Assembly: GCF_001039275.2 (NCBI RefSeq) | Contig: NZ_CP030117.1 | Coordinates: 5,187,501 to 5,251,500 of the forward strand | Length of the DNA: 64,000 nt | From: Brevibacillus brevis | GTDB taxonomy: Bacteria > Bacillota > Bacilli > Brevibacillales > Brevibacillaceae | Reading direction: 5' to 3' | Part shown: positions 3,558 through 57,186 of the stretch, piece after piece | Numbering within the stretch: the stretch's first letter is position 1 | How the letters are laid out: each line of letters opens with the position of its first letter | The notes under the pieces: generated by a model | Databases searched by the model: none | Seen by the model: the letters and a program-made list of their open reading frames with translations, nothing else | What the model was told of the DNA's origin: nothing | Position numbers and translations under genes: made by a program

Positions 3558-4598
3558 TTATTTTTTGCTATTGCCGATCTCTTCTGGCTTGAAAATGCCT
3601 GTCTCCGTAACGATTGCTGTAATGTACTTCGCAGGCGTTACATCGAACGCAGGATTGTACACCTTGATATCGTCTGGAGCTACCTGTTTGCCCAAGCCAT
3701 GGGTAATTTCCTCGGCTGGACGCTCTTCAATCGGAATATCTGCGCCTGTCGGTGTCTCCAGATCAACAGAGGACAAGGGAGCGGCCACGTAAAAAGGAAT
3801 GCCGTGAGCTTTTGCCAATACCGCTACCCCATACGTACCGATCTTGTTGGCGACATCGCCATTCGCTGCTACGCGGTCTGTACCCACAATGACAGCCTCT
3901 ACTTTCCCTTGGGACATTACCATCGCGGCCATGTTGTCGCAGATCAGCGTCACATCAATCCCTGCCTGCTGCAATTCAAATGCAGTAAGTCGAGCGCCTT
4001 GCAGGACAGGACGGGTTTCGTCCGCGTACACCTTCAGGTTCCAGCCGCGTTCCTTTGCCAAATAAAAGGGAGCGGTAGCCGTACCGTACGCTGCTGTAGC
4101 CAATGCCCCTGGATTACAGTGCGTGAGAATTCCCATACCGTCATGCAACAGTGTGAGCAGATGTTCTCCGATGGTCCGGCATACTTCAGCGTCTTCCTTT
4201 TGAATCGCCAGTGCTTCATCAAGCACTGCCGCCTTTAACTTGGCAATCGACGCTCCGCTTTCTTTTTCAACACGAGCTTTGATGCGATCCAATGCCCAGA
4301 ACAGATTCACGGCTGTCGGACGGGAAGAGCCCAGGTAGTCTGCCTGCTGGTTCAGTTCCTGCCAAAACTCGTCGTAGTTACTCGCTTCACTGCCACGAAT
4401 CCCAAGGTAGAGTCCGTAAGCCGCCGCCATGCCAATCGCTGGTGCGCCACGCACCTCCAAACGACGGATAGAACCCCATACTTGCTCGGAGGTAGTCAAG
4501 TTCAAATAGATCGTTTCTACTGGCAGACGCGTCTGGTCAAGCAAGACCAATGCGTCATTCTCCCACTTAACAGGTGCCAATTGGGTGCTGGTTGTCAT
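3558..4598 (-). CDS. mtnA: Methylthioribose-1-phosphate isomerase
   Basis: A 346-residue protein of the eIF2B alpha/beta/delta-like fold that converts 5-methylthioribose-1-phosphate to 5-methylthioribulose-1-phosphate in methionine salvage. Visible hallmarks are [13 protein letters not shown] (about residue 50), the catalytic Cys in [10 protein letters not shown] (Cys161) and the catalytic Asp in [10 protein letters not shown] (Asp241). The ATG at 4598 has an AGGAGG nine bases upstream and overlaps the mtnK stop as ATGA, so translation is probably coupled. The reading frame stays open upstream inside mtnK, but that extension is not part of the gene. Confidence 0.96.
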
Positions 4599-5824
4599 AC
4601 TGTCGTTGCCTCCTGATAGTAACGTTCGGTCACAGTGCGTACGATGTCCGTGATATCTGTCGATTCGTCTATGCTGCCGCGACCGAGAATCAGCGCTTCT
4701 CCAATCGAGAGAGCCAGACGCTCTGCTTCTGCGCGAGTCTGGTCGTCTTCGATGGCATTCAGGTCCGCTACGCCTGCCAAGCCGATGACACGGCGCAAGA
4801 TTTTGCATCCGGCATAGCCTGCTGTATCCTGAATCAGGCGCTTCACGTAGCTTTGCCAAAGTCCCTCGACATGGGCACTGCGCTCTTTGGCGTGCTTGTG
4901 CCAGAGCTGAACGAATTGCGAAACGAATTCATTCCAGACATCCTCGACCGTTTCCAGTAAGTATTCGCGGTACGCTTCCCGTTCTCCTTGATCTTTTTGC
5001 AAACCGTGCTGTCCTGCGTAGTTGAGCAACAGATTGGCAATGACCGCCCCGATATCAAAACCGATTGGACCGTAGTAAGCGAATTCTGGATCTATTGCCT
5101 TCAGGCTGTTTTCCGTGATGAAAATACTTCCGGTATGCAAGTCACCATGCAGCAGCGCTTCTGCGCGCGTAAGGAAATCGTATTTCAGCTTGGCGATTTC
5201 CAGCTTCAGCGGCCTGTTGTTCCAGATCACCTCGACTTCCCGGCGAATCAACGGATTGAAGTCGTTGGTAGGCGCATTTTCATACGGATCAGTAAAAACG
5301 AGGTCTTCTGTGATTTTGCATAATTCTGGATTTATGAATGTTCCGACTAGCGCTTTTTTATCGTACGGATGCGCGCCCAGATCGGATGTAAAGAACAAGG
5401 TTTGCGCGAGAAAACGACCAATTTGCTTCGCAAATAGCGGGTACCGCTTTCCTTCGATCAGACCTTTGCGCATGATGATGTGGTCCCCGACGTTTTCCAT
5501 GACAGTCAACGCAAGCTCCCCGTCGAAATGATACACCTGCGGCACCAAGTCTGGAACGTATTTGTGCTGAATGCGGAGTGCCTCGCTCTCGATACGAGCC
5601 CGATCAATCGTAAGCGGCCAAGATTCTCCCACGACGCGGGCAAAAGGCAGTGCTTGCTTAACAATGACGCTCTTACCAGTTGATGGCTCTTGAATGTCAA
5701 AAACCAGATTGAGGTTGCCATCCCCGATTTCTCGGCTGGTCAGCTCTGCTCCTTCGCTAAAAAGACCCGGTATTCCTTTTACGTACTCCACTGCTTCCTG
5801 TTCAGTCAATGCGCGATATGCCAT
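4595..5824 (-). CDS. mtnK: S-methyl-5-thioribose kinase
   Basis: A 409-residue kinase of the aminoglycoside-phosphotransferase/choline kinase fold. It phosphorylates 5-methylthioribose at C1, the step before MtnA. The Brenner-type catalytic loop HGDLHTGS and the metal-binding segment [11 protein letters not shown] are present, and length and N-terminus match the MtnK family. It is the first gene of mtnK-mtnA and sits behind a SAM riboswitch (5894-6169), so it should be made when S-adenosylmethionine is low. Confidence 0.96.
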
Positions 5825-5893
5825 GATTCCAAAACTCCCCTCTACGTATTTTCCCTCTATCTCTACTTGTTTTGTTTGTGTCCCTGGAGCAAT

Positions 5894-5925
5894 AAAAAGA
5901 CCTCTTTTCCCGAAGAAAAGAGGTC
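5894..5925 (-). terminator. Riboswitch-controlled terminator before mtnK
   Basis: Minus-strand perfect stem GACCTCTTTTC/GAAAAGAGGTC with a CGG-type loop, then TTTTTAT. This is the expression platform of the SAM riboswitch. Confidence 0.9.
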
Positions 5926-5959
5926 GCTGTCGTCACGTGTAAGAACCGTGTTGATGTCC

Positions 5960-6106
5960 CCCTTATCTTCCAGACCACTTTTGTTTCTGCAGGAATTAGC
6001 ACCGTGCATGTCGCCTGTCAATCAGTCGCTTCCTCGCGTCTGAATGGCGTCATGTCGGTTGCCGGGTATCATCGGGCCAGTCCCTCCACCTTCTCTGGAT
6101 AAGGTA
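5960..6106 (-). promoter_or_regulatory. SAM-I (S-box) riboswitch aptamer upstream of mtnKA
   Basis: The minus strand carries the S-box signature elements in order: P1 5' arm CTTATCCAGAG, GGTGGAGGGACTGGCCC, GATGATACCCGGCAACC, GGTGCTAATTCC, then the P1 3' arm GATAAG. SAM binding should favour the terminator at 5894-5925 and shut off mtnKA. Confidence 0.95.
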
Positions 6107-6139
6107 TCCAAAACGTATTCGGTTTTTGATTTAGTTTGA

Positions 6140-6169
6140 ATCATACAACCAACGCTTCCACGATGTCAA
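6140..6169 (-). promoter_or_regulatory. Sigma-A promoter of the mtnKA S-box transcript
   Basis: Minus-strand TTGACA (6164-6169), an 18-base spacer, and TATGAT (6140-6145), about 35 bases upstream of the aptamer. Confidence 0.8.
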
Positions 6170-6201
6170 CACCCTTTTGTGCAAAAATTCGCACCTTGTT
6201 A

Positions 6202-7380
6202 CTAGTAAGTGTAATGTGCTCCCGATGCCGCAGGCTGCTCCCAATTCCACCAGTCTACCTTGCCTAGAAGCGCTGCTGTTATCGACTTTTCGGCCTTGAG
6301 CTTTAACAGTTCTTTCGTAGGTCCGGTTAGGACAGCGCCGTAGATACGAACTCCGTTTTGCTGCATGTAGTTGTATCGTTCTGTAATTTGCGGATCGCTA
6401 CGAAATAACAAGGATCTGCCGATATCGCGAGTCAAACCTTCTTGCTCGGACAAGTACTTCATTTCGTTCAGATAAGTCGCCATCCGCCTATCCCCTTCCC
6501 CGTTTACAAGAATAGGTCCACCATAATCCAGCTCCCGTTCTGCAAAACCCCATACTTTTCCGGGACCTACCATCAACTGTCCCTCTTCACTCTCTTTGGT
6601 CTCGACCCCTGTGTCTACTGCAAACCAAACCGTATCTTGTCCCGAAGAGGCAACATGGCGGGAAACCAGTTCATAGTACTCCTCGTACGTCAGGAAGTGA
6701 TCGAAGGAAATCGCAAGCTGTGAAACCGTTCCCTCGGGCAGCTTCTCCATCGTTGTCCAGGCAGGTGAAGTGCGAAAGTCCGTATTCTCCATTGCCCCCT
6801 CTGTCGGATAACGGAAATACAGCTTCTGTTCCCTGACCCCATTCGGCCATTTCGGCCCAGCGTTTACGTTCCACAGCACATTTGTGCTTTCAAAGCGGCC
6901 AGCGTTCTTTTCTTCCGCTCCAACCCTTTCACGCAACTCCATGCTGATATTGCCGTAAAACAATCCCACCTGCGAGCCACTACCGCCTACACTAACACCT
7001 GGTTGAGTAAAATTGACCATCGACTTCGCAACGCGAAACAGATCTTCATGCATCAGAGACCCAACCCAGCCATTCAGAATCAGCAACACAACTCCGGCCA
7101 AAAAGGGAAGCCCTATGGTGAATCCAGCGTTGGACAACCGATTTTTCCATTTCCCCCGGCGAACAATGGCACGCTGTTTTTCAGCGGACAGTGTTTCAGG
7201 CTGTTTTGTTTTCACGTTGTCCTCTCTCGTTTCTTCCCCCAACAAAAGCCTCTCCAATCGCTGTGCGTATTCCTCGTCAGCGGCTATTTCGTCCTCGAAT
7301 TGTTTTGAATCTTCTTCCGCCATTTCCCCACGCAAATAAGCAAGCAGCCTCTGCTCGCGTTTATTCTCATCTGTGTTCAT
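6202..7380 (-). CDS. Anti-sigma factor, YhdL-type (sigma-regulator N and C domains)
   Basis: A 392-residue single-pass membrane protein. A short acidic cytoplasmic N-terminus (about 1-75; LLAYLRGEMAEEDSKQFEDE) resembles a zinc-free anti-sigma domain. One helix follows (about 90-110) and then a large outside domain. Its C-terminal segment TGPTKELLKLK...WNW is very like the end of B. subtilis YhdL, the membrane anti-sigma factor of SigM. The ATG at 7380 overlaps the sigma stop (TGATG) and has GGAGGGAGG upstream; an in-frame GTG exists at 7401. It most likely holds the co-transcribed sigma factor until envelope stress. No terminator was seen before the mtnK promoter. Confidence 0.8.
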   Translation of the reverse strand: MNTDENKREQRLLAYLRGEMAEEDSKQFEDEIAADEEYAQRLERLLLGEETREDNVKTKQPETLSAEKQRAIVRRGKWKNRLSNAGFTIGLPFLAGVVLLILNGWVGSLMHEDLFRVAKSMVNFTQPGVSVGGSGSQVGLFYGNISMELRERVGAEEKNAGRFESTNVLWNVNAGPKWPNGVREQKLYFRYPTEGAMENTDFRTSPAWTTMEKLPEGTVSQLAISFDHFLTYEEYYELVSRHVASSGQDTVWFAVDTGVETKESEEGQLMVGPGKVWGFAERELDYGGPILVNGEGDRRMATYLNEMKYLSEQEGLTRDIGRSLLFRSDPQITERYNYMQQNGVRIYGAVLTGPTKELLKLKAEKSITAALLGKVDWWNWEQPAASGAHYTY

Positions 7381-7856
7381 CACCGGCTTTCCTCCCTCCA
7401 CAACTGCCGCATCTTTTGTCGTCCCCGAAACAAGGAACGCTTGACGTCTGCCAGCTCGATTCCGAGTACCTCTGCCATTTCCGCGTAGGAAAACTGCATG
7501 GCAGACAACAAAATGACCTGTCTCTGCTTTTCCGGAAGTTGCTCCAAATAGTCATGGGCCACTTCCCACAGCTCCTTGTTCACGACATGCTCTGCCGGAT
7601 CAACCACCGAATGATCACGTCGCTCTGGCAAGGCTTCCACAAACGCAAATCGTTGTTTCGTCTTCTTGCGATAACCGTCCACGAAAGCGTGATAGGCCAC
7701 CTTGAACAGCCAGGGCCGTACTTTTTCCCCACGGTAGTCATCCAAGGAAGAGAAGGCGCGACAAAAGGTTTCCTGTGTCAGATCCTCTGCCAGTCTCTCA
7801 TCTCGTGTCAGCCGGAAAAGATAGCGGTAAATATCGTTTACATGTAGCTGGTACAC
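7380..7856 (-). CDS. sigM: ECF RNA polymerase sigma factor, SigM-like
   Basis: A 158-residue group IV sigma factor with region 2 (about residues 5-65; LAEDLTQETFCRAF, WLFKVAYHAFVDGYR) and region 4 (about 100-150; LPEKQRQVILL, SYAEMAEVLGI). It resembles SigM more than other Bacillus ECF factors, and its partner resembles the SigM anti-sigma YhdL. The GTG used here (7856) is doubtful: GGAGG is only two bases away, and frame-open upstream codons (GLED before VYQLHVNDIY) also match SigM, yet no ATG, GTG or TTG lies in frame above. The start is therefore unresolved. An ECF-type promoter at 7905-7931 suggests autoregulation. Confidence 0.85.
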   Translation of the reverse strand: MYQLHVNDIYRYLFRLTRDERLAEDLTQETFCRAFSSLDDYRGEKVRPWLFKVAYHAFVDGYRKKTKQRFAFVEALPERRDHSVVDPAEHVVNKELWEVAHDYLEQLPEKQRQVILLSAMQFSYAEMAEVLGIELADVKRSLFRGRQKMRQLWREESR

Positions 7857-7904
7857 ATCCTCCAGACCTACTTTCCCAAGCCGTTCACACCCCTTCCTCC
7901 CTTA

Positions 7905-7931
7905 CCACGAAAGAATTGCCAAAAAGTTTCA
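7905..7931 (-). promoter_or_regulatory. ECF-type promoter of the sigM-like operon
   Basis: Minus-strand TGAAAC (7926-7931) followed after 16 bases by CGTGG (7905-7909), the classic ECF layout. It lies about 50 bases before the sigma gene. Confidence 0.65.
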
Positions 7932-7984
7932 CCTTCGTCTTATTTTTCTAATAATCCACTGCACATTCTCTGCAAAAACAAAGA

Positions 7985-8013
7985 TTGACTCCTGACAATG
8001 AACGTCATATCAT
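7985..8013 (+). promoter_or_regulatory. Sigma-A promoter of the mtnWXBD S-box transcript
   Basis: TTGACT (7985-7990), a 17-base spacer, and TATCAT (8008-8013), just upstream of the aptamer. Confidence 0.75.
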
Positions 8014-8028
8014 GGGGGAAACGAATAA

Positions 8029-8155
8029 CTCTTATCGCGAGCTGGCTGAGGGACTGGCCCTATGATGCCCGGCAACCGGCGCTATACCATGAATCGTACG
8101 CTGATGATGCGTACCTTGGATAGCGAAACGGTGCTAATTCCAACGGATAAGAGTC
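8029..8155 (+). promoter_or_regulatory. SAM-I (S-box) riboswitch aptamer upstream of mtnWXBD
   Basis: S-box elements in order: CTCTTATCGCGAGC, GCTGAGGGACTGGCCC, TATGATGCCCGGCAACC, GGTGCTAATTCC and the closing GGATAAGAG. A terminator follows at 8235-8264, with GAGATGAG-type alternative pairing segments between. Confidence 0.95.
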
Positions 8156-8234
8156 GAGATCGAGCTTTTTTTGGCTCATCTCGGCTACTGACCCGAGAGA
8201 TGAGAGGAGACGAGACGCTTTCCTAGTCGACAAC

Positions 8235-8264
8235 CGCCTCCCCGCTCAATGGGGGGGCTTTTTT
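8235..8264 (+). terminator. Riboswitch-controlled terminator before mtnW
   Basis: GCCTCCCC pairs with GGGGGGGC across a 7-base loop, followed by six T; it lies 28 bases before the mtnW start. Confidence 0.85.
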
Positions 8265-53165: not shown

Positions 53166-53627
53166 GTGAAACTCGCGGAAGCGTTAATCATTCGTGCCGA
53201 TTATCAAAAACGGATCGAACAGTTGGGGCACCGTTTGCATAACAGCGCAAAGGTTCAGGAAGGCGAGCTTCCTCCTGAAAATCCTAACGATCTCTTATCT
53301 GAGCTGTATCAGTTGTTTGACCAGCTCGAACGTATTGTTCAGCAAATCAATCGAACCAATGCGTCTTGCCGCTTTAACGAGACAATGACGCTCTCCGATG
53401 CGTTAACCAAACGTGATGTTCTCGGTTCAAAACGCAATGAGCTGGCCGACCTGATCAAAGCAGCTACAGTCAAGCATGATCGCTACAGCCGTTCGGAGGT
53501 CAAGATTTGCTCGACTGTTAATATTGCCCAGTTGCAAAAGCAAGTCGACGAGCTGTCCAAGCAGTACCGGGAACTGGATGCAAGCATTCAACAATTCAAC
53601 TGGTTAACGGAGCTGCAAGAAACCTGA
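53166..53627 (+). CDS. DIP1984-family protein (DUF6847)
   Basis: A 153-residue all-helical protein of the DIP1984 family, formerly annotated as septicolysin-like. Family segments are clear: KLAEALIIRADYQKRIEQL, INRTNASCRF, LSDALTKRDVL, RYSRSEVK and a C-terminal QQFNWLTEL. Heptad patterns suggest coiled coils. The GTG start has a GGGGGG-rich site. One base after its stop begins a tRNA-like RNA (53629-53754), so both are probably one transcript ending at 53900. The molecular role is not established. Confidence 0.85.
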   Translation: MKLAEALIIRADYQKRIEQLGHRLHNSAKVQEGELPPENPNDLLSELYQLFDQLERIVQQINRTNASCRFNETMTLSDALTKRDVLGSKRNELADLIKAATVKHDRYSRSEVKICSTVNIAQLQKQVDELSKQYRELDASIQQFNWLTELQET

Positions 53628-53628
53628 C

Positions 53629-53754
53629 GTAAGAGACATGGAAGTCGGTAGTCTGTCTGCAAAAGGCGAACACGTCCCCATTCAACAGGGTTAATGTTGA
53701 AAACTCATTGGTCGGGTCGAGGGGCAACCCTGAGGGTTCAAATCCCTCTCTTAC
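53629..53754 (+). ncRNA. tRNA-like RNA directly downstream of the DIP1984 gene
   Basis: GTAAGAG (53629-53635) can pair with CTCTTAC (53748-53754) as a 7-bp acceptor-like stem. The 3' side has a tRNA T-arm, GAGGG-TTCAAAT-CCCTC. The 5' side has a D-arm-like TGGAAGTCGGTAG with GG and AA at D-loop positions. GGGT/ACCC around GTCGAGGGGCA-type sequence resembles a long variable arm. Where a tRNA has its anticodon arm there is about 70 bases with a TTCAACA/TGTTGAA hairpin and no clear anticodon stem. It is 126 nt, too long for a tRNA, and lacks an encoded CCA (TTACATAA follows). Confidence 0.65.
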
Positions 53755-53859
53755 ATAAAACGCCCAGTAATGTGACATGAGTAATGCGTACAAGGTATTG
53801 TAACTACCGTGTGTTGATTTTGTCTGACAGACGAGGGTGGGTACGGGGATCATTCCATG

Positions 53860-53900
53860 AAAAAGCCCTTCACGCCTTTATGTGGCGAGAAGGGCTTTTT
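53860..53900. terminator. Bidirectional terminator after the DIP1984/tRNA-like unit
   Basis: AAAAAGCCCTTC-CGCC pairs with GGCG-GAAGGGCTTTTT around a short AT loop; it works on both strands. The stretch 53755-53859 before it has no gene; it includes a GTCTGACAGAC palindrome whose GACAGAC is complementary to GTCTGTC in the tRNA-like RNA. Confidence 0.9.
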
Positions 53901-54132: not shown

Positions 54133-54981
54133 TCACCACACTCGCTGAACACTGAGCATTTTTCGCAGCTCGTCGACCGAACGTGGAATATTTCCGCCAA
54201 GTTCCCGCTTCCACTGCTCAGGGAGTGCCTCCCACACATCAACGAGCAACGGCATACCCAGATGAAGACTCTCCAGCATAGTTCTATTTTCCAATGCCTC
54301 CTGCGGATCTCCCGCAAACACAAGCCTGCCTTCATCCATGATGCAAATCCACTCTGCCCATTCAAAGGCAATATCCATATCATGTGTCGCCATCAAAACA
54401 GTCGTTCCTTGCCGGTGAATGGCATCGAGCTCCCGCAGTAAATTTTTCGTCTGATAGCGATCCAGATACGCAGTAGGCTCGTCCAACAGCAATAGCTCGG
54501 GCTCCATGACCATGACCCCTGCGAGTGCGAGACGCCGTTTTTGTCCCAGGCTCAAATGATGAATCGGAGCTTCTGCCAGCTCTCTCAACCCGAATGCATC
54601 CAGCACCTTTTCTACCTTTGCCCGGATTACGTCCACAGGCAGCTTTTGATTACATAAACCGTAGGATATATCTTCCGCGACCGTGCTTGCGATCAGCTGA
54701 TGCTCGGGATCTTGAAAGACCAAACCTACCTTTTGCGTCATTTCTTGCAGGGCGGCTCGCTTGTAGACCAGCGGTTTCCCCTTCCACAGCACCTGTCCCT
54801 GCTGTGGCTCGATGATCCCGTTTCCATGCAAGAACAAGGTCGACTTCCCACAGCCATTTCGTCCCAAAAGGACACATTTTTTCCCCTCTGGAATCCATAA
54901 GGATAACCCAGACAGGACGGGTCCCCGCCCTCCCGGATACGTGTACTGCAAATCGATGAACTCTAACAACCGTGATGTCAT
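54133..54981 (-). CDS. cbiO: Cobalt ECF/CbiMNQO transporter ATPase
   Basis: A 282-residue ABC ATPase with Walker A LLGRNGCGKST, Q-loop VGLVFQDPEHQLIA (the CbiO/EcfA signature), LSLGQKRRLALAG and Walker B LLLLDEPTAYLD. It energises cobalt uptake with CbiM, CbiN and CbiQ. The ATG at 54981 overlaps the cbiQ stop (ATGA). The family-typical PEHQ motif and gene order make the assignment firm; nickel remains possible, but the B12 riboswitch favours cobalt. Confidence 0.94.
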   Translation of the reverse strand: MTSRLLEFIDLQYTYPGGRGPVLSGLSLWIPEGKKCVLLGRNGCGKSTLFLHGNGIIEPQQGQVLWKGKPLVYKRAALQEMTQKVGLVFQDPEHQLIASTVAEDISYGLCNQKLPVDVIRAKVEKVLDAFGLRELAEAPIHHLSLGQKRRLALAGVMVMEPELLLLDEPTAYLDRYQTKNLLRELDAIHRQGTTVLMATHDMDIAFEWAEWICIMDEGRLVFAGDPQEALENRTMLESLHLGMPLLVDVWEALPEQWKRELGGNIPRSVDELRKMLSVQRVW

Positions 54982-55775
54982 AACCGCCAACCTCCTGTCC
55001 ACCACTCAAGCAGTACCAGCAGCATACAACCTGCGATTGACTCCCATTCATAGCGTCGCGAGCGAGCGTGGGTATGAAACGCGAGCACCTGCATGCTCTC
55101 CCCGAAGCCTCTAGCCGCCATCCCTTTGTGCAAGGCTTCATATTTGCGCATCGCTCTGACAAACAATTGCGCAACGAGAACTCCTGCATCTCGAAGCGTC
55201 GCGCGGAAGCCGCGATGACCTCCACGAGAACGTTGGGCAATCCAGAGCTGGTGAGAAATCGTTACCAACACAAAAATAAACCGATACATGATCATTAATA
55301 AGTCAGTCACAATGACAGGCATACGGAGCCAGCGAAGCACCTGCAAGATTTCGGCAAACGGCACGGTAAACAAAATGAAGGCAAAGCAAGATAAGCTCCC
55401 CATGGTACGCCAAAATAAGATCCAAACTTTACTGAAGGAAGACATCGGCACATAGAGAACATACGAACCCAGTTCCCATACTGCCGCGACCTGGACCTGT
55501 ACTTCTCCTGCCCTCGCTCCTTCTACCAAGAGGGCAGGGAGCCCCGCCATGAAAAACGAGAGCGACACGATCATAAAGGCACAGTAGATACGGACAGGAA
55601 TACGGGCATACACTACTACCCATACCGTCATCCAGACAACGACCGCCATCTGCATCCATACATGTCCCACCAGGACGAGCAGTAACAATGCACTCGCCAG
55701 CAATAGCTTATGTGCTGGAGGCAGACGTTTCAGCCTGTTTTGATAAGAGAGAGAATCAAGTTGGAGCCCGTTCAT
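54978..55775 (-). CDS. cbiQ: Cobalt transporter transmembrane subunit
   Basis: A 265-residue EcfT/CbiQ-family membrane protein with about five helices. The cytoplasmic coupling motifs FRATLRDAGVLVAQLFVRAM and YEALHKGMAARGF carry the Ala-Arg-Gly signature contacting CbiO. It overlaps cbiN and cbiO by four bases each. Confidence 0.92.
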   Translation of the reverse strand: MNGLQLDSLSYQNRLKRLPPAHKLLLASALLLLVLVGHVWMQMAVVVWMTVWVVVYARIPVRIYCAFMIVSLSFFMAGLPALLVEGARAGEVQVQVAAVWELGSYVLYVPMSSFSKVWILFWRTMGSLSCFAFILFTVPFAEILQVLRWLRMPVIVTDLLMIMYRFIFVLVTISHQLWIAQRSRGGHRGFRATLRDAGVLVAQLFVRAMRKYEALHKGMAARGFGESMQVLAFHTHARSRRYEWESIAGCMLLVLLEWWTGGWRL

Positions 55776-56056
55776 TTTTTCCGCTTATCCAACCGACCTT
55801 TGTACAAACCCACAGCGTAGCCAACCACTCCCGCTCCCAACGCCGCCTGCACCGCAAACAATAGACTCTCCGTCTCTCCTCCTGGCGGTTCTATCAGCGG
55901 CTGGAACCACGGTTCGTAGTTCGGGGCAATTTCCTTGATCGCTTCCTCCGCCACGCCGTCTGCGCCGCCAAATTCCGAATCCTGCACCAGCAACAACGGG
56001 ACAATCGCCAGTACGATTACCCCCAAGAGCAATAGCCAGTTCCATCCTTTTTTCAC
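55772..56056 (-). CDS. cbiN: Cobalt transporter accessory protein
   Basis: A 94-residue protein with two membrane helices (about 5-24 and 67-85) and a short outside loop with [23 protein letters not shown] and [13 protein letters not shown], the CbiN family core. A GTG start at 56056 follows GGAGG and overlaps the cbiM stop by four bases. CbiN is needed with CbiM for cobalt loading. Confidence 0.88.
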
Positions 56057-56817
56057 AGCGATTCCTCCCGTTTGAGCAAACGAAGCTGTGTAAGCTCTTT
56101 TGCGTTGTAAGATAACAACCAGTTCCAAACAAGAACGGTCAACAGCCCTTCACTGATTGCGAGCGGCACTTGCGTGAATGCAAAAATTCCTGCAAATTTG
56201 GCAAACGAGGCCAACACTCCACCAGATTCAGCCGGGAATGCGAGCGCCAGTTGAATGGAAGTCACCACATACGTAGCGAGGTCAGCCAAAGCAGCCGCCG
56301 CAAAAACAGCCAGACGCTGGCTTCCGCCCACTTTCATGATCATTCGATAGATTCCGTATGCCACCAGTGGTCCTACTACCGCCATGGATACAGCATTTGC
56401 TCCTAGCGTAGTCAAGCCTCCATGTGCCAAGAGCAAGGCTTGAAACAAGAGCACCATACTCCCTAACACAGACATCGCAAAAGGCCCAAACATAATGGCG
56501 CCAAGGCCTGTTCCAGTCGGGTGAGAGCTGCTGCCTGTAACCGAAGGGATTTTCAGTGCAGATAAAACAAACGCAAACGCTCCAGCAACGCCAATAAGGA
56601 GCTTCATTTCGGGATGTTCTTTTACAATCTTGTTAATCGAGCGAATCCCAAGTATAAAAAACGGCAAGAAGACAGCCCACCAAAATAAGGCCCAGGATAA
56701 TGGCAAATACCCTTCCATGATGTGCATCGCATGTCCTGTCTCTGGTTCATTGAGCAAAAAATACAGGACAAACCCCGCGATCATCAGACCAGTAGATACC
56801 AGACGAGATCGATTCAT
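56053..56817 (-). CDS. cbiM: Cobalt-binding substrate subunit
   Basis: A 254-residue S-component. A signal-like first helix ends before [17 protein letters not shown], whose His and Met at the processed N-terminus bind cobalt in CbiM proteins. The conserved [18 protein letters not shown] segment is present. It is first of cbiM-N-Q-O, behind a cobalamin riboswitch and its terminator. The ATG at 56817 has GGGGGAAGG upstream. Confidence 0.94.
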
Positions 56818-56860
56818 GTTCCTTCCCCCTTCACTGACTTTCGTTCTATTCCTACAAACA

Positions 56861-56892
56861 AAAAAATCCCATCCATCACTGGACGAGATTGT
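56861..56892 (-). terminator. Riboswitch-controlled terminator before cbiM
   Basis: Minus-strand AATC-TCGTCCA pairs with TGGATGG-GATT around GTGA, followed by seven T. Confidence 0.75.
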
Positions 56893-56969
56893 GCACACAA
56901 AACAACAGACTGACTATACAGCCTCATTGCCCGTATTCACCGCTCCTTTCCGCGAAGGTTCTGTGGGTG

Positions 56970-57140
56970 TGGCTTATAGGTAGGTCTCCTGGCTTCCAGA
57001 TCCATGCGCTCTTTGTCCTTCCCCATACGAAAATGAGTGGTTTCCTTCTCAAAGAGAGCTCCCTGGTTACAGTGGCGGGACCGCTCGGGACTTTCACCCG
57101 ATTCCCTGTTACCCTTTATGCTTCACATAAAGGCACCTAA
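56970..57140 (-). promoter_or_regulatory. Cobalamin (B12) riboswitch upstream of cbiMNQO
   Basis: On the minus strand GGTGCC...TAAAGGGTAACAGGGAA is followed by CGGGTGAAAGTCCCGAGCGG, cut here as the family core GTGAAAGTCCC and GCGGTCCCGCCACTGT. The B12 box AAGCCAGGAGACCTACC lies at about 56978-56994. Adenosylcobalamin binding should switch off cobalt uptake by termination at 56861-56892. Confidence 0.95.
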
Positions 57141-57186
57141 CGCCGACAATATACAATTGACAGATAATTCATGTTTGTCCCACATC

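Follow-up and report, generated by a model that had tools for sequence, protein, structure and literature searches.

A conserved double-pseudoknot RNA accompanies DIP1984-family genes in several bacterial phyla and may form a ribonucleoprotein with their product

DIP1984-family genes are followed, on the same strand, by a conserved folded RNA in Bacilli, Clostridia, Actinomycetota, Cyanobacteria, Chloroflexi and Proteobacteria. We characterized the pair at one locus of the window, a stretch of 64,000 nucleotides from the 6.44-Mb genome of Brevibacillus brevis, where the protein has its closest named relative in Brevibacillus fortis (99% protein identity). A protein-RNA pair had been proposed at this locus in an original prediction; as a conserved linkage it has strong support, and the two partners probably form a complex. 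We hold it evenly balanced whether they constitute one inherited ribonucleoprotein (RNP) working like the unrelated Ro60-Y RNA particle in the handling of RNA or tRNA damage. The RNA was undescribed in the literature searched, in Rfam 15 and in the annotation of the records opened. A 2016 survey by Burroughs and Aravind, which reportedly covers RNA-repair neighborhoods, may already have noted the gene context of DIP1984.

The DIP1984 gene itself was confirmed by two family models, its product scoring 192.4 bits against NF038048 (cut-off 70) and 187 bits against PF20935 (cut-off 27). The AlphaFold model has four helices and a mean pLDDT of 91, with less certainty at residues ~101 to 120, where the conserved RYSRxEIK motif falls. 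It superimposed on PDB 3kdq, a solved DIP1984-family structure from Corynebacterium diphtheriae, with a Z score of 16.8 and an rmsd of 1.8 over 151 residues. In the fold search 3kdq alone stood out among solved structures, the next best match (Z 7.8) being of a kind that the search tool rates as common for helical proteins. The window protein is thus a plain member of the DIP1984/DUF6847 family, whose proteins are annotated "septicolysin" in some Acinetobacter plasmid records. These proteins are mostly mildly acidic (pI 4.8 to 7.8, n = 20), so non-specific RNA binding is not suggested. Pfam and fold searches gave no convincing match to a nuclease family, and TROVE was unmatched up to E 1 in the Pfam search. 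A viral structure search returned nothing at E<=0.001, its best matches being unnamed phage proteins with TM ~0.5, and a PHROGs search with four DIP1984 proteins was uninformative. Literature searches on the family surfaced neither a function nor an associated RNA; the terms DUF6847, PF20935, 3KDQ and NF038048 gave matches only through "3KDQ", on unrelated subjects.

The RNA was delimited with a covariance model, R1, whose seed comprises 31 sequences (L067, L085, L065 and L040 were excluded as odd or divergent). The window RNA, itself one of the seed members, scored 152.8 bits (E 1e-41). The features of the locus are as follows.

53166-53627, plus strand: DIP1984-family (DUF6847) gene, 153 aa, GTG start, TGA stop
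53642-53849, plus strand: conserved structured RNA, 208 nt as modelled here; its true ends may differ
53647-53651, plus strand: GGTAG, possible tertiary helix with CTACC at 53804-53808
53652-53673, plus strand: 5' strand of P1, the long closing rod, pairing with 53811-53831
53677-53701, plus strand: P3 hairpin (stem 53681-53687 with 53695-53701) and pseudoknot PK1
53714-53730, plus strand: P4 hairpin with GGGC in its loop, covariation
53722-53765, plus strand: pseudoknot PK2, P4 loop GGGC (53722-53725) with GCCC (53762-53765)
53732-53748, plus strand: T-arm-like hairpin with loop TTCAAAT, T-loop pattern and stem covariation
53811-53831, plus strand: 3' strand of P1, covariation in the seed and model-fitted alignments
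53832-53849, plus strand: 3' block CGAGGGTGGGTACGGGGA, GAGGG.GG nearly invariant in the 31-sequence alignment
53860-53900, unstranded: inverted repeat AAAAAGCCCTTC...GAAGGGCTTTTT with T-run, terminator-like in both directions, read directly in the sequence

The element had been described as an RNA of 126 nt, which is too short: the conserved part continues past ~53754 to ~53849, some 95 nt further. The TTCAACA/TGTTGAA hairpin, taken earlier to replace an anticodon arm, is present and is the P3 stem of an H-type pseudoknot found throughout the family, in which CCC ahead of the stem pairs with GGG in the loop (PK1). The strong terminator-like repeat behind the element was likewise found again; a simple terminator scan called none at this position, probably because the stem is bulged. 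Consensus blocks follow each other in the order AGTnGGTAGC, AAAGGCGAGTAC, CCCGCCAACnGGGAAAGTTGGA, GGGG, the T-arm in some members, GCCCAGTAC, TAACTACCATGTACTGATTT and GTGAGGGTGGGnnnGGGG, and GGTAG, GGCGAG, ACTACC and GAGGGTGGG are nearly invariant in the 31-sequence alignment. Those Acinetobacter and Enterococcus members that were read lack the 3' block. An 85-aa open reading frame on the minus strand (53596-53853) spans the RNA; we take it as a chance occurrence.

The evidence for the RNA structure is comparative. In the seed alignment, 86.3% of the cells of the proposed structure are paired, compared with 74.2% (sd 0.7) in shuffles and 30 to 44% when the partners are slid, and none of 500 shuffles matched the observed pairing. 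Both-sided changes occur in 30 of the 39 pairs of this alignment. They affect all 14 counted pairs of P1, whose main helix has 96.8% of its cells paired, all five pairs of P3 (88.7% of cells), two of three in PK1 (75.9%), three of four in PK2 (87.1%) and two of four in the stem of the T-arm. P4 shows them in four of four pairs, but with just 63.7% of cells paired; this figure is 85.7% in the model-fitted alignment. The latter set, 74 distinct rows and biased towards the model, has 94.0% of cells paired versus 63.6% and both-sided changes in 26 of 27 pairs, a count equaled by 19 of 500 shuffles; on the other measures shuffles never equaled the observed values. When every pair of columns in 60 sequences was scanned without a structural guide, the six top-ranked pairs all fell within P1. 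From the first large alignment, L041, L072, L080, L082, L083 and L095 had been dropped as repeats of other loci and L030, L070, L071 and L077 as truncated or gapped; L068, L069, L092 and L094 were additionally dropped before the unguided scan.

A further tertiary helix between GGTAG and CTACC is possible. Its GGT/ACC part is nearly invariant, which makes covariation uninformative, and the other two pairs fail in 10 to 11 of the 31 rows; Acinetobacter members lack GGTAG and keep ACTACC or ATTACC. Folding of the single sequence 53629-53757 was not significant (z -1.63). Of the stretches compared between genomes of one genus, the RNA is the least changed: in two comparisons, 6 and 5 of its 208 positions differed, compared with 19 and 17 of 462 in the DIP1984 gene and 15 and 16 of 198 in the upstream stretch.

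The element is conserved beside DIP1984 genes in other genomes; the original prediction had named a lack of such conservation as refuting it, and this outcome was not observed. When the DNA 3' of DIP1984 was read in 25 relatives from named genomes, the element was present in all 24 with enough sequence, mostly within tens of bases of the stop codon (~195 nt in L013). The contig of L030, the 25th, ends at most 8 nt past the stop codon and, searched separately, gave no significant R1 match. At E<=0.01, 70 of the 74 sources searched gave an R1 match, L030 and L011 not being included in this search; a DIP1984 gene, intact or broken, lies ahead of the RNA in 69 of the 70, in L069 as a 32-nt fragment only. 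L006 is the one match without a DIP1984 gene. Outside the seed, 39 of 43 sources matched, some of them near-identical to seed members. R1 was weak in L052 (E 0.016) and L068 (E 0.083) and gave no significant match in L071, with an assembly gap inside the gene, or L077, whose contig ends ~220 nt downstream. Five further records (L106 to L110) also matched.

Whole-genome searches gave the same picture. R1 was positive in 9 of 151 Bacilli genomes, all nine with DIP1984; this draw is smaller than that used for the protein (250), so some DIP1984 genomes may fall outside it. Among 244 cyanobacterial genomes, the six strong matches were all in DIP1984 genomes, and the contig of the seventh DIP1984 genome ends ~220 nt behind the gene. 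Two weak partial cyanobacterial matches (G660 and G681; 17 to 18 bits) lacked DIP1984, with about two chance matches expected at E<=0.01 per genome over 244 genomes. The protein is sparse: in the class to which the window belongs, 14 of 250 genomes carry it (13 above the family cut-off), and we found it in 7 of 244 Cyanobacteria, 11 of 296 genomes of the phylum that includes the Corynebacterium locus (G270) and 17 of 299 of that of the Clostridium locus (G268). Apart from the misses given above, the motifs of the RNA were also read behind these genes.

Mobile DNA carries the pair as well. The protein occurs on 342 Acinetobacter and 17 Enterococcus plasmid records, and the RNA was found in all three searched sequences of that Acinetobacter plasmid type (L049, L050 and L054) and on one Enterococcus plasmid. 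Its motifs were read behind plasmid-borne DIP1984 in Acinetobacter, Enterococcus, Psychrobacter, Paracoccus, Mycolicibacterium, Streptomyces and Picosynechococcus, and on a phage contig; R1 gave 38 to 89 bits on the Psychrobacter, Paracoccus, Mycolicibacterium and Streptomyces plasmids. A scan of viral contigs yielded two relatives. In L054 two sites in the same orientation (L054:334 and L054:4752), which we take to be pdif half-sites, bracket DIP1984 and the RNA. In G820 and G906 two DIP1984-RNA units stand in tandem ~2 kb apart (L081/L094 and L082/L095), with diverged RNAs. The locus L006:1516-1607, from a Brevibacillus relative (G004), is a scar of the element in which the middle of the RNA is gone.

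The pair mostly stands without associated neighbors, and RtcB lies beside it in three lineages. In two Acinetobacter records, rtcR is divergent from a row made up of a gene for an MBL-fold protein (annotated ribonuclease BN), rtcB, a gene X, DIP1984, the RNA and rtcA. Gene X (L105:9463-9963) encodes 166 aa without a Pfam match, and the 259-nt gap behind DIP1984 holds the RNA, with rtcA next. A sigma-54-type sequence lies ahead of rtcB. R1 was weak on these two operons (14.2 bits, E 0.003 to 0.016), and Rfam 15 gave no match up to E 1 on the Acinetobacter rtc operon. This rtcBA-type gene order is absent in the window. The records (CAKLQF020000002.1 and CAKLQH020000004.1, our L105 and L106) are named "Acinetobacter phage MD-2021a"; because of their gene content, with rpoH, thiG, aroA and pheA in L105 and rtc genes together with aroA in both, they look like mislabelled bacterial, chromosomal DNA. 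Island G51 of Acinetobacter baumannii carries rtcA, rtcB, rtcR and rntZ (PMC3224125); the passages of that paper on G51 do not mention the DIP1984-RNA pair, and the word septicolysin is absent from it.

The second lineage is the phage contig L053 (IMG/VR), with the order tRNA-Thr, DIP1984, RNA, tRNA-Met, RtcB, two tRNA-Cys and an ATP-dependent ligase. Its stretch 3913-8261 is a tRNA/RNA-repair island, with seven tRNAs in 8.5 kb of the contig, and ~300 nt of other sequence separate DIP1984 from the RNA. In the third, L065, from the phylum of the Corynebacterium locus, the order is tRNA-Asp, DIP1984, RNA and RtcB. The link to RNA repair that had been tentatively suggested in the original prediction holds for these three lineages and is the exception overall: among 33 sampled genomes having both genes, RtcB adjoins DIP1984 in one, of the L065 lineage. 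The frequency of RtcB is only slightly higher among genomes with DIP1984 (33 of 49) than among the sampled ones without it (19 of 31), and TROVE, found in 5 of 47 versus 1 of 31, does not exclude DIP1984; the 31 comparison genomes were taken from among those listed and are not a random draw. TROVE was unmatched at E<=1e-10 in the window's genome (G000). tRNA or tmRNA genes occurred in 4 of 48 DIP1984 loci scanned.

These neighborhoods invite comparison with Ro60 and its Y RNAs. As described in the relevant passages of PMC7790460, Rsr (Ro60) and Y RNAs are encoded within the rtcBA operon of Salmonella. One of these RNAs, YrlA, contains a domain resembling tRNA, and the regulator of this rsr-yrlBA-rtcBA operon senses tRNA fragments. 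Like Ro60-Y RNA, the DIP1984 locus joins a protein gene to a structured RNA that has a tRNA-like element; like Rsr and the Y RNAs beside rtcBA (PMC7790460), the Acinetobacter pair sits inside an rtcB...rtcA row divergent from rtcR. In contrast, DIP1984 is a four-helix protein without a TROVE match, its RNA has a pseudoknotted core and lies below every Rfam 15 threshold, and RtcB seldom adjoins it, unlike in the Rsr-rtcBA linkage. None of the Y RNA models in Rfam 15 reached its gathering score, Deinococcus_Y_RNA giving 17.1 bits (E 1.6, threshold 80). The best sub-threshold Rfam candidate, Plastid-psbl-rps4, was rejected as well: it scored 29.9 bits against a threshold of 68, on the minus strand, and rested on the complement of the T-arm.

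The constant pairing, the fixed order and the joint presence on plasmids suggest that protein and RNA act as one RNP. The DIP1984 gene and the RNA would share one transcript, and the RNA would be cut out of, or protected in, the 3' part of the message. It would fold as the P1 rod bearing two pseudoknots, plus the T-arm in many lineages, and be held by DIP1984. If such a complex forms, a role in tRNA or RNA damage is fairly probable: the particle would be an accessory one that deals with RNA that is damaged or resembles tRNA, in some cases next to the RtcB ligase and RtcA cyclase and otherwise alone. Since the Acinetobacter pair holds the place that Rsr and the Y RNAs occupy in the Salmonella operon, binding or escorting damaged tRNA, or competing with tRNA nucleases, appears its most likely activity. 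More tentatively, and with somewhat less than even confidence, we propose an ancient RNP class consisting of DIP1984 and a dedicated ~210-nt double-pseudoknot RNA with a T-loop mimic in many lineages, which would replace Ro60-Y RNA in repair operons, act on its own in other settings to sense or carry damaged tRNA, and have spread by horizontal transfer, on chromosomes, plasmids and phages alike. It is unusual for a structured RNA of this size to be conserved in five phyla or more. Given a dedicated protein partner, its function can be tested directly: there is one gene, one RNA and one likely complex, in hosts that are culturable and harmless. If the proposal is correct, DUF6847, with a structure (3kdq) solved since 2009, would gain a role, and the place of Ro60-Y RNA in RNA-repair operons could be filled by an unrelated particle.

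The best-surviving alternative, which we nevertheless consider unlikely, is that the RNA is a cis-acting 3' element: DIP1984 would bind its own mRNA to control stability or translation, and no free RNA would exist. The same-strand position of the RNA would suit such a role, with a median of 16 nt between the stop codon and its start motif (quartiles 12 to 34, 63 loci), as would the confinement of strong R1 matches to DIP1984 genomes in the two whole-genome searches. In our judgement, however, a double-pseudoknot element of ~200 nt that is retained in several phyla goes beyond what autoregulation usually requires, and the RNA persists beside broken genes and when separated from the gene, as in L053.

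Type III toxin-antitoxin systems use a pseudoknotted antitoxin RNA that consists of short repeats in tandem and is encoded ahead of the toxin gene. A type III-like or defence role, with the RNA binding the protein to silence it or the pair acting against phages or the loss of plasmids, is doubtful and ranks behind the cis-acting element. What recalls ToxIN-like systems is a protein encoded beside a pseudoknotted RNA and found on plasmids, on a phage contig and on chromosomes in patchy fashion; the sparse scatter of DIP1984 over Bacilli, Cyanobacteria and other phyla, the Acinetobacter and Enterococcus plasmid records and the presumed pdif half-sites of L054 also speak for this possibility. The DIP1984 RNA, in contrast, is single, ~210 nt long and located downstream of the gene; one element stood behind each DIP1984 gene in the loci read, unlike the tandem-repeat arrangement of such antitoxins. 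In addition to the lack of a convincing nuclease match, PADLOC on four DIP1984 proteins returned just one weak partial match, for one of them (16.2 bits), and no ToxN-like fold was among the fold matches listed, an absence that is no proof. The rtc operon of Acinetobacter is, moreover, a repair setting rather than a toxin one.

Third, the RNA might be the active part, as a ribozyme or trans-acting RNA, with DIP1984 merely its chaperone, which we regard as rather improbable. The compact pseudoknotted fold and the nearly invariant blocks are compatible with activity, but these blocks could equally be protein-binding sites, and no target or reaction is known. Intact RNAs beside broken DIP1984 genes also favor this reading: where the frame is broken in G019, G117 and G147, the RNA still scores 83 to 150 bits, and it may outlive the protein. 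A broken frame with a downstream RNA that is intact by model score is seen at loci L005, L043 and L045. The RNP reading is hardest to reconcile with the intact RNAs of G019, G117 and G147 and with the lack of a T-arm in many members.

The RNA is not a tRNA. ARAGORN called no tRNA or tmRNA gene in the window, and Rfam scans of the element gave no tRNA match; on these grounds a tRNA, a decayed tRNA and a tmRNA were ruled out. The tRNA-like description of the element survives in its T-arm and fails, across the family, in its acceptor and anticodon parts. GTAAGAG does start at 53629, one base past the stop codon, and is able to pair with CTCTTAC (53748-53754); the T-arm with its TTCAAAT loop is where it had been located, and no CCA is encoded. 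The 7-bp acceptor and the 5-bp T-stem, however, cannot form together, as C 53748 is common to both. A conserved acceptor stem was ruled out, with a mismatch in B. fortis and pairing between the segments at 24 loci no better than across species (mean longest pairing 4.54 versus 4.53; 102 of 200 permutations as high). The T-loop pattern is present in 26 of 64 members, 23 of which have a stem of at least 3 bp; by pattern plus stem the T-arm is absent in 41. It recurs in Bacilli, Clostridia, Chloroflexi, Actinomycetota and Cyanobacteria, and many Sporosarcina, Acinetobacter and other members have a different hairpin, or none, in its place. The family therefore shares with tRNA and tmRNA a T-loop hairpin in those 23 members and differs from them in having no conserved acceptor stem, anticodon arm, CCA or ARAGORN call; tmRNA also contains pseudoknots. 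That the element is a decayed tRNA or a set of chance hairpins behind an ordinary gene, as the T-arm sequence, the fortuitous 7-base pairing and the non-significant single-sequence fold might suggest, is refuted by the covariation, with compensatory changes and conservation across phyla, and by the negative ARAGORN and Rfam results, and its probability is negligible.

The remainder of the window holds ordinary features. Minus-strand transporter genes at 54133-57155, recognized by eye only, are probably for cobalt (cbiMNQO); a cobalamin riboswitch lies at 56962-57155 on the minus strand (113.5 bits, Rfam), and two SAM riboswitches lie at 5960-6105 (minus strand) and 8029-8206 (plus strand).
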